Assembly (NCBI GenBank): GCA_036940085.1 | Contig: JALLBK010000583.1 | Coordinates: 1 to 11,820 of the forward strand | Source of the DNA: Discostella pseudostelligera | Lineage: Eukaryota; Bacillariophyta; Thalassiosirophyceae; Thalassiosirales; Thalassiosiraceae | Reading direction: 5' to 3' | Length of the DNA stretch: 11,820 nucleotides | In this document: positions 1,477 through 10,868 of the stretch, one piece after another | How positions within the stretch are numbered: the first letter of the stretch is position 1 | Layout: each line of letters opens with the position of its first letter | The notes under the pieces: model-generated | The model's input: only the letters and a program-made list of their open reading frames with translations | Told to the model about the DNA's origin: nothing | Database searches by the model: none | Program-made: the position numbers and the translations under genes

Positions 1477-4400
1477 TCAATTAGACCGCATAACTTCCTG
1501 ACAGGCTTTCGCAAAAGTCAGCGGCACCGCTTTCAAGATCAACATAGCCTCGTCAACTACTTCGCCTCCTCCACCGTTGAATTTATGGCAATTATCGAAC
1601 ACAAGAAGGAAGTCATTATAGAACTTGGCGGCGGCATTGGATCCTTTTCCATATTTCCCTTGCACAACCTTCGACCTCATTGTGCCAAAATCCATCGGAC
1701 GAGTAATTATTGCGTGATAGCCAGGAACCTCGCTCTCGGTGACAGGGTCCTTAAAGATGTCATACGTATCAAGCCTGCATACAAATAATGATGGTGGGTT
1801 AACATTGAAGGAATGTAGAAACGATGCACACGAGGTCACAGTCAAGCCACTTACTTGGATATGTTGGCGAGTGTAATTTTCGCAACATCTTCGAATTTCG
1901 ACTCGATGACTGATGGTAGACTCCAAACCCCTTGTCTGACGAGAAAGTCACGCGCTGCTTCCCATGTCCCATCTAAATTGTCGTACTCTGTTTGAAGCTG
2001 GTTGACATCGAACATTGATTCATCCGCATCTTCATCATCATCTTCCGATTCATCGCTTGAGCTAGGAGATGGTTTCTTTGCACTGCTAGTTCGAGCCCTT
2101 TTCGAGGCATTACCAATTGTCTTTTGGGGAGTTGCCTTCCTCTTCTTCGCTGACGCAGACTTCTTCTCAGTAGTCTTTTCGGTAGGGGTGCCCTTCTTAC
2201 CGGAAGACAATTTCAGACGGATGCGGGGTTTGGGCACTTCCTGCCCGTTCGCGTCATCATTTGAGCCATCGTCTCCCTTCCCTTTATGGCCGTTGCTAGA
2301 GCCCTTCCCCTTCACTGTCTCCCTCCGGATATTAACGCAGGCCCGATTGATGCACCGTTTCTTCGGATTGCCAGTGCAGGCTTCACACTTTTTGCAGGCT
2401 TTGCGCTTGCATCCTTCACACTGTCCACAAGCAACAAGTTTTACAGTTTGCTTTTGAGGACTCTTTCCTTTCTTTCCTTTGTCGGCTTCATCGTCGTACA
2501 CTTCAATGATATTTCCGCTGATAGTAGAACGGTAGGTGAGATTGGAAGGTCAGAACAAGAAAAAGTCTTCGTGGTTATGTAAGGGATTCAGCAATACTTA
2601 CTCGTCACAAATGAAGAGAAGATTTTTGAGAGCTGCCTCTTTCAACAGTTTGGGCCTCATCAGCGTCTGCCTTTGAGCCTCCCTGACAATATCAGAGTCC
2701 TGTGCGTTGAACTGAAGGCAGTTGGTATTCACCAGAGCAAAGTCTTTCTGCATGGCTTGCGCAGAGCGATATTCTCCTCTGGCAAGCTTCTCTTTCATTG
2801 TTCCTACAAAACAGTGTAATGTGAGATAGGAGGCAAGCCGGAAAAGATATCGCGTAATTTTGAGATCCTTACCATAGTCCATCGGCTTCTTGATAAGCTC
2901 ATAATATTCAGGGAATTGGTCCATCGGCACAGGCACAGAGAATAGCCCAAGATGTTCCTTGTCGATTCGTATAACTTCGTCAAGCAACGAACCAAGAACG
3001 TTCGGAACCGAATTCCTCGGAAATACAGGCCATGGCATGGCCGCAAGCTTAAGAGGATCTTTACCTGCTCCCCACTCTCGTCTTCTCTTCGCCTCCTTCA
3101 TGCTTATTGATTTCTTCCCACTTTTATACAAGTCTGTAAGAGAAGGAGAATGAGGTAAGTCAGAGAGAAACAAAAGAGATGGACATGGCGAAGTAAGATG
3201 TATCAAACCGTACCATCATCCACATCCGACCAGTCTCCTTCATCGTCGGAGTGCTTCAAATACCCGTCGTCGTCTAGCTCTACTTCACGGTTACTTTTCT
3301 TTTTTGTTTGCTGGTTCTCATCGTCTGTGTCGCTGTCTCCATCCTCATCGTTCGCTGCCTTACTCTGCTTTTTCACACCCTTCTTCCTCTTCTTTTTGCT
3401 GCTGACAATCAACAACTCCTTACGGATAGATGGTGCAAAAAGTGCGTCATCAACAACGTTTGCATCCATTCCGATATTAGACGTTCTACATTTCCTCCTC
3501 CTATCCCCTTCTAGATTGTCCAATAGTTTCTTGGCAGTATCCCGTTGGCTTTGACTAAATAGCTTGGATTTGACCGAAATGGTAAGCAACAGCTTTTGGC
3601 AAATTGCCTTTTCCGATGGAGGCAGCGTATCGTCCCTGTCCTGCTCGAATATATCCTCCTAGAGTAAAAAAAGAAGCATAGCATATTTGAGTATTGAGCG
3701 GGAAATTCCATGTAGGTAATGCTGATTGTCAATACTTACCATGACACCTTTTAGGTCTGTCATGAACTCGTTCACCTTCTTAATTCTACCTCTAGTGAGG
3801 CCTTTCGAATCATTGCCCGACTTGCCCCCCTTCATTGGGCGGCCTTTGGCAGGTTTCTCGAATTCTTCCTCCATTTCGTTGATCTTATTCAAAAGGCTGG
3901 GGATAGCATTCAGTACAATTGAGATCAGAATTGCGTGTCGACACAGCAAGAACCTCGAAAATGAATCATACTCACATCTCTGGAGTTACAAAGTCAGGCA
4001 TGACTTTTTGCCAGAATAGGGGATCGTCAACGTCAATACCAGCAGACTCTGATTCACTGGCAAATTTACTCTTGGTCACATTCATTCCTTTCTTATTTAG
4101 CCACGACGCAGTTTTGGCTCCTTCCACAACTCTGGTCCGTGTTCGTTTCTCAAGAATGCTTTCAATATCATCGGCGACGAACTCTTTTCCAATTTCGTCG
4201 TTTTCATCTTCCAGCAAGGCATAAGCCCCTCGTTTGAGCAATTGTTCCATTTCCGTCGATGTCGGTTTATCGTCATCATCTTCTTGGCCGAAAGTCCCCA
4301 GGACAGCTTGTTCGAGCCCAAGTTTCTTACTTGCTCTGTCAAACATTTCCTGCTCAAATGTTCTGCTTGTAACAAGGCGGTAGATTCTCACATCCTAACA

Positions 4401-10868: not shown

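Follow-up and report, generated by a model that had tools for sequence, protein, structure and literature searches.

A diatom gene predicted to encode a CHD-type chromatin remodeller with its chromodomain pair parted by an HMG box, a bromodomain and a PHD finger

In the diatom Discostella pseudostelligera, a gene on the minus strand of the stretch of DNA analysed here (the window, 11,820 nt; the genome assembly amounts to 23.0 Mb in 963 contigs) is placed by sequence comparison among the CHD remodelling ATPases, as one diatom member of a branch of this family found in stramenopiles. From the N- to the C-terminus, its predicted product carries chromodomain 1, an HMG box, bromodomain 1, a PHD finger, chromodomain 2, a PDZ domain, the SNF2/Helicase_C motor, bromodomain 2, a CXXC finger and bromodomain 3. 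The best overall explanation, which we consider probable, is a stramenopile CHD motor with a chromodomain pair split by the HMG-bromodomain-PHD segment, in which acetylated chromatin would recruit or license remodelling.

Gene model and continuity of the chain

The splice model runs on the minus strand from an ATG at 10868 to a stop at 1477 and yields 2591 residues with no internal stops, from 20 exons separated by 19 introns of 69-109 nt, all of them GT-AG. Exons 1-10 lie at 10868-9830, 9729-9164, 9069-8163, 8077-7314, 7232-6813, 6718-6374, 6275-6192, 6109-5805, 5724-5508 and 5431-4996, and exons 11-20 at 4921-4874, 4776-4641, 4531-4468, 4394-3976, 3896-3740, 3658-3214, 3133-2873, 2803-2602, 2517-1855 and 1774-1477. 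The single 20-exon polypeptide proposed in the first-pass annotation could thus be reproduced, and homologues align with it nearly from end to end, its N-terminus included. Closest among the best 120 of 4474 homologues are P0001 and P0002, each with 74% identity over 99-100% of the chain, and P0003 (Thalassiosira sp. AJA248-18, labelled partial) has 73% identity over 100% of it. P0002 derives from an MMETSP transcript set, in which its ORF is tagged 'type:complete', and several homologue contigs barely exceed their ORF in length (e.g., 2593 aa on 7959 bases), as expected of transcripts.

The length of the chain and the crowding of its domains could suggest that the splice model has run together at least two neighbouring genes, and a gene break had been suspected between 4000 and 3200; however, junctions 14-16, which lie there, align without gaps to the complete ORF of P0002, as do 18 of the 19 junctions overall, junction 1 falling in a variable linker. 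Small gaps occur at a few junctions in other homologues (P0003 at 1, 4 and 5; P0004 at 1 and 16; P0001 at 1). With three homologues aligned over 99-100% of the chain and one of them a transcript-derived complete ORF, a fusion of separate genes is very improbable, and it is confirmed at the level of predicted coding sequence that 10868-1477 encodes one polypeptide. Downstream on the same strand, an intronless short-chain dehydrogenase frame occupies 85-1209 (PF00106, 70 bits) and starts some 250-270 bases beyond the end of the CHD frame.

Domain composition and the state of the reader modules

Whole-protein Pfam scores exceed the cut-offs for SNF2 (251 bits), Bromodomain (188), Helicase_C (92), Chromo (56, in two stretches) and HMG_box (43.5), and the three bromodomains, scored singly on the DNA, reach 62.9, 46.8 and 34.6 bits, each above the cut-off of 21.7. 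PHD (21.3 bits, cut-off 24), PDZ_6 (14.0, cut-off 27) and PDZ (11.9, cut-off 23.2) fall below theirs, and Pfam gives no CXXC match in the 2591-residue protein; the CXXC family PF02008 does match in relatives, among them P0053 of Triparma (40.7 bits). The full order was mapped by profiles built from the diatom alignment, which are trained on the same family and show order, not independent identity. Of the domains listed in the first-pass annotation, the SNF2 motor, the chromodomains, the three bromodomains and the HMG box are borne out by Pfam and the PDZ domain by its fold, and the PHD and CXXC fingers are present in altered form.

On the N-terminal side of the motor lie chromodomain 1 (aa 215-268, 10065..10226, one of the two Pfam Chromo stretches, also located by the family profiles), the HMG box (aa 389-454, 9407..9604, PF00505), bromodomain 1 (aa 472-555, 9010..9355, PF00439, acetyl-lysine Asn544), the divergent PHD finger (aa 591-637, 8764..8904, PF00628), chromodomain 2 (aa 650-707, 8554..8727, PF00385, best stretch 673-707), the PDZ domain (aa 831-917, 7839..8184) and an acidic linker evident from the sequence (aa 958-1015, 7545..7718), all coordinates here and below referring to the minus strand. 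The motor consists of SNF2 ATPase lobe 1 (aa 1323-1616, 5231..6448, PF00176, 250.9 bits), in which Walker A (GLGKT) and DEAH are intact, and Helicase_C lobe 2 (aa 1662-1774, 4477..5095, PF00271, 91.6 bits). It is followed by a conserved post-ATPase segment (aa 1826-1912, 3990..4250), delimited by homologue alignment and family profiles, and by a conserved helical region (aa 1916-2032, 3470..3980), delimited by alignment and a structure model and corresponding to no recognised domain; a fold search with the model of homologues of aa 1896-2032 gave no clear match, and Pfam found no SANT-SLIDE DNA-binding domain in the protein. Bromodomain 2 (aa 2160-2250, 2667..3008, PF00439, Asn2237), the short CXXC finger (aa 2302-2332, 2337..2429) and bromodomain 3 (aa 2486-2570, 1543..1877, PF00439, Asn2559) complete the chain.

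The PDZ assignment combines the weak Pfam signal with the predicted fold of the homologous segment of P0003, which was modelled together with 11 relatives at a mean pLDDT of 90.6. This model has 285 PDB matches at E <= 0.001, and 47 of the 50 listed titles name PDZ, the remaining three being chains of SYNJ2BP and MAGI1, which we take to be PDZ proteins as well. In homologue P0078 the Pfam PDZ score exceeds both cut-offs, and a PDZ fold for aa 831-917 is confirmed at the level of the structural model.

The preservation of functional residues was counted in 45 aligned rows (the query protein and P0001-P0044), scored over the rows with a letter. The Walker A Lys and the DEAH Asp/Glu are present in 45/45 rows, and the SNF2/Helicase_C motor motifs are intact by this measure. 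The acetyl-lysine Asn is kept in bromodomain 1 in 38/38 rows with a letter, in bromodomain 2 in 35/36 and in bromodomain 3 in 31/31. The canonical zinc His position of the PHD finger holds His in 0/38 rows (the query protein has a His one residue earlier), and an extra Cys, Cys598 in the query, occurs in 37/37; the His is kept in the PHD finger of P0048, P0049, P0055, P0067, P0077, P0078, P0092, P0093 and P0098. The ligand set of the diatom PHD finger (P0001-P0044) appears rearranged, with the His lost, an extra Cys gained and the second Cys often His or Thr. In the alignment, YKGR of chromodomain 1 stands opposite WKGW of human CHD1, at positions which we take to be those of the chromodomain cage, and by the usual criteria the aromatic cage looks incomplete in both chromodomains.

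The CXXC finger was recognised by its Cys pattern, eight Cys that fit CXXCXXC-X4/5-CXXCXXC ... C-X4-C. In the query protein and P0001-P0004 the KFGG loop is deleted and KK stands at the CpG-contact site, and KFGG is kept in P0008, P0011, P0045, P0046 and Triparma. Type 1 CXXC domains are described as binding CpG with KFGG and KQ/RQ, and type 2 as not binding CpG (PMC4642587, PMC3685328), and a short type 3 is described as able to bind with HQ (PMC3685328). Type 1 was rejected for the query, given the deleted loop and KK in place of KQ/RQ; the short linker resembles type 3, but KK replaces HQ, and judged by its residues the finger matches none of the three types cleanly. All nine core domains were found in 25 of P0001-P0044, the remaining 19 including many without one end; among these 25 complete orthologues PHD is detected in 22 and CXXC in 9, the profile search giving no CXXC signal in the other 16.

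Such erosion could mean that the protein is an ordinary CHD motor in which most readers are relics with structural or partner roles, recruited mainly through HMG/basic DNA binding and partners. The PHD His missing from every scored row, the CXXC loop lost in the query clade and the CXXC finger undetected in 16/25 complete orthologues, YKGR in chromodomain 1, and bromodomain 3, which with 67% identity in the closest listed homologue is no better conserved than several linkers, would all fit. However, the Asn is near-invariant in three separate bromodomains, and identity to P0001 is 88 and 84% for bromodomains 1 and 2 and 93 and 96% for the chromodomains, compared with 44-70% in the linkers and at the N-terminus, so that reduction of most readers to relics appears rather unlikely.

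What sets this protein apart is the arrangement of its chromodomains. The mention of two chromodomains in the first-pass annotation was right as to their presence, but it hides the HMG-bromodomain-PHD segment between them and, beyond them, the long linker that precedes the motor: chromodomains 1 and 2 are 376 residues apart, and chromodomain 2 and the motor, with the PDZ domain and acidic linker between them, 603. For comparison, 20 homologues among the best 120 of 4474, including Hondaea, Mucochytrium and animal CHD proteins, have both chromodomains and the motor and lack bromodomain 1. In these the first gap measures 7-65 residues in 16 and 141-236 in four (P0110, P0113, P0114 and P0116, of which P0113, with 236, and P0114, with 218, are from flatworms), and the second 26-34 residues in 18 and 570-612 in two (the labyrinthulid proteins P0096 and P0099); none of the 20 has a bromodomain-PHD cassette in the first gap. 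Since wide gaps also occur without bromodomain 1, gap width alone is not unique, and on the aligned sequences the distinctive part is the reader cassette inside the chromodomain gap.

Place in the CHD family and distribution

An SNF2 and Helicase_C motor with intact motifs and two chromodomains N-terminal to it place the protein among the CHD remodellers, although adjacency of the chromodomains to each other and to the motor, a usual but not universal CHD trait, is absent here (gaps of 376 and 603 residues). The best solved structures by sequence are CHD1 (445 bits) and CHD4 (399 bits), whose motors are homologous to that of the diatom protein. In two ATPase trees, the first of 117 rows (ten homologues being dropped as too short), CHD4 of human and CHD1 of human and yeast fall outside a group formed by the stramenopile clade and CHD6-9 (SH-like 0.751 in the first tree; ultrafast bootstrap 96 in the second), with only three CHD1/CHD4 sequences included and a long branch as outgroup. 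Subfamily I (CHD1) was rejected on YKGR instead of WKGW and on the tree, which does not group the protein with CHD1. Subfamily II (CHD3-5) was likewise rejected: a single PHD finger lies between the chromodomains, and CHDNT scores 11.8 bits (cut-off 27) and overlaps the HMG box. Human CHD4 has tandem PHD fingers (PMC4568016), which were not found in the diatom protein.

It may be asked whether the protein instead belongs to animal subfamily III proper (CHD6-9, Kismet) and acquired its additional domains there. All seven animal rows with a CHD number among the best 120 of 4474 are CHD7, 8 or 9, and CHD1 and CHD4 fall outside the clade; a member of this group such as Lingula CHD8 (P0109) also has two chromodomains before SNF2/Helicase_C and a related post-ATPase segment. 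However, Pfam finds no BRK domain in the 2591-residue protein, the deeper nodes on the non-CHD1/4 side have a bootstrap of 14, CHD1 and CHD4 are represented by just three sequences, and the diatom homologue P0016 bears the database name CHD3-type; membership in subfamily III is accordingly doubtful. Several animal CHD6-9 rows carry PF07533, presumably the BRK domain. In P0109, 27 residues lie between the chromodomains and another 27 between these and the motor, and the diatom-alignment profiles find no bromodomain, HMG, PDZ or CXXC in the animal CHD rows. A Seminavis protein is already named 'CHD3-type chromatin-remodeling factor CHR7' in databases.

In the first tree, one clade unites the query protein with 43 homologues, among them the named diatoms of sufficient length, and its sister consists of P0045, P0046, P0047, P0050 and Triparma P0053 (joint clade SH-like 0.968; bootstrap 95 in the second tree). 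As far as can be judged from homologue sequences (P0001-P0044 include fragments), the architecture is shared by many diatoms besides the source species, and much of it also by the sister clade that includes Triparma. P0053 (Triparma retinervis, which we take to be a bolidophyte) shares chromodomain 1, bromodomain 1, chromodomain 2, a weak PDZ, the motor, a CXXC finger with KFGG and a C-terminal bromodomain 3 signal (38 bits), but its HMG and bromodomain 2 signals reach only 12-13 bits, its PHD finger is incomplete and the sequence is labelled partial. Among P0045-P0120, an HMG signal of at least 12 bits is found only in P0047 and P0054, Triparma P0053 lying at about 12, and CXXC reaches at least 20 bits only in P0045, P0046, P0050, P0053 and P0081. 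The model of the C-terminal bromodomain matches three times in each of P0049, P0051, P0052, P0065 and P0082, where an independent gain may have taken place.

The core of chromodomain, bromodomain, PHD finger, chromodomain, PDZ domain and SNF2 motor occurs, by profile matches, in other stramenopiles too. Chromodomain 1, bromodomain 1, chromodomain 2 and the ATPase are all present in 68 of the best 120 of 4474 homologues and follow one another in this order in 65 of them (exceptions P0060, P0102 and P0112); a PDZ signal between chromodomain 2 and the ATPase was found in 61 of the 65 by a family-trained model with a low cut-off of 12 bits, being missing in P0062, P0077, P0090 and P0098. In print, the core appears for oomycetes as a table row of Matari and Blair (2014), who searched diatom genomes for homologues as well, with no functional study found there (PMC4030286): the 'Chromodomain-containing protein (D)', PITG_03401, is given in Table 2 as [Chromo], bromodomain, PHD, chromo, [PDZ], SNF2, Helicase_C and then PHD types, brackets marking domains missing or non-significant in some species. 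As listed there, it shares the order up to Helicase_C with the diatom protein, but it lacks the HMG box, the CXXC finger and the C-terminal bromodomains; its C-terminal cluster of PHD and zf-HC5HC2H is not among the 13 Pfam families of the query protein and is present in P0092. The architecture is therefore lineage-restricted in the searches made, as had been proposed, in a wider lineage than the source species. What is new relative to the oomycete core is the HMG box, bromodomains 2-3 and CXXC; no description of the form with HMG box, three bromodomains and CXXC was found in the literature searched, which covered few subscription papers. For dinoflagellates, CHD-type proteins are counted only, as far as that account goes (PMC4751559).

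Two further CHD-like genes were seen in the same genome. One (L033, G000:C113, 3858-8495 on the plus strand) encodes two chromodomains and SNF2 behind an N-terminal bromodomain, a separate combination of an acetyl reader with CHD; the other (L034, G000:C115, about 7143-2178 on the minus strand) has chromodomain-like sequence and SNF2, with no bromodomain match within this interval in the searches made.

Proposed mechanism and significance

In the reading preferred here, the motor would be tethered to acetylated nucleosomes by the bromodomains on either side of it, which would bind the acetylated tails of histones, and DNA would be held by the HMG box and the basic C-terminal region. Engagement of acetylated, active nucleosomes probably relieves a restraint on the motor or tethers it, and the PDZ domain may recruit a partner with a C-terminal tail or dock a C-terminal tail within a complex. 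CpG recognition by the CXXC finger probably works in relatives with the canonical loop and would be weakened or changed in the query's clade. In Phaeodactylum, H3K9/14 acetylation and H3K4me2 are reported to mark genes (PMC4504042), so acetyl ligands exist in diatoms. The suggestion that one chain senses acetylation, methylation and DNA together exceeds what can be read from sequence: the kept bromodomain Asn agrees with its acetylation part, but the PHD His, the KFGG loop and complete cages are missing, and combined sensing by a single chain is something we infer.

The motor of Chd1 is gated by its chromodomains. A gate built alike is unlikely here, because the HMG-bromodomain-PHD segment parts the chromodomains and a long linker parts both from the motor; wide gaps in proteins without the cassette mean that gaps need not imply new gating. 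More tentatively, and with less than even confidence, it may be proposed that stramenopiles possess a CHD class of their own, with a cassette of acetyl readers set between the two chromodomains and the pair no longer coupled to the motor, and that in diatoms and bolidophytes this class became a single-chain integrator, whose CpG reading has drifted or been lost among diatoms. If this is true, the integrator would read acetylated histones at both ends together with DNA, and one protein would do what animals spread over CHD, BPTF/BAZ and CXXC proteins.

Diatoms rank among the major primary producers of the sea, and within the literature searched their chromatin remodellers have received little study. 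A conserved single-chain remodeller with three bromodomains would allow the coupling of acetylation to nucleosome movement to be tested directly in a lineage distant from animals, yeast and plants. Its split chromodomain pair would serve as a natural experiment on gating of the Chd1 type, and the CXXC finger, whose state across diatoms grades from canonical through loop-less to undetected, invites comparison with DNA methylation.
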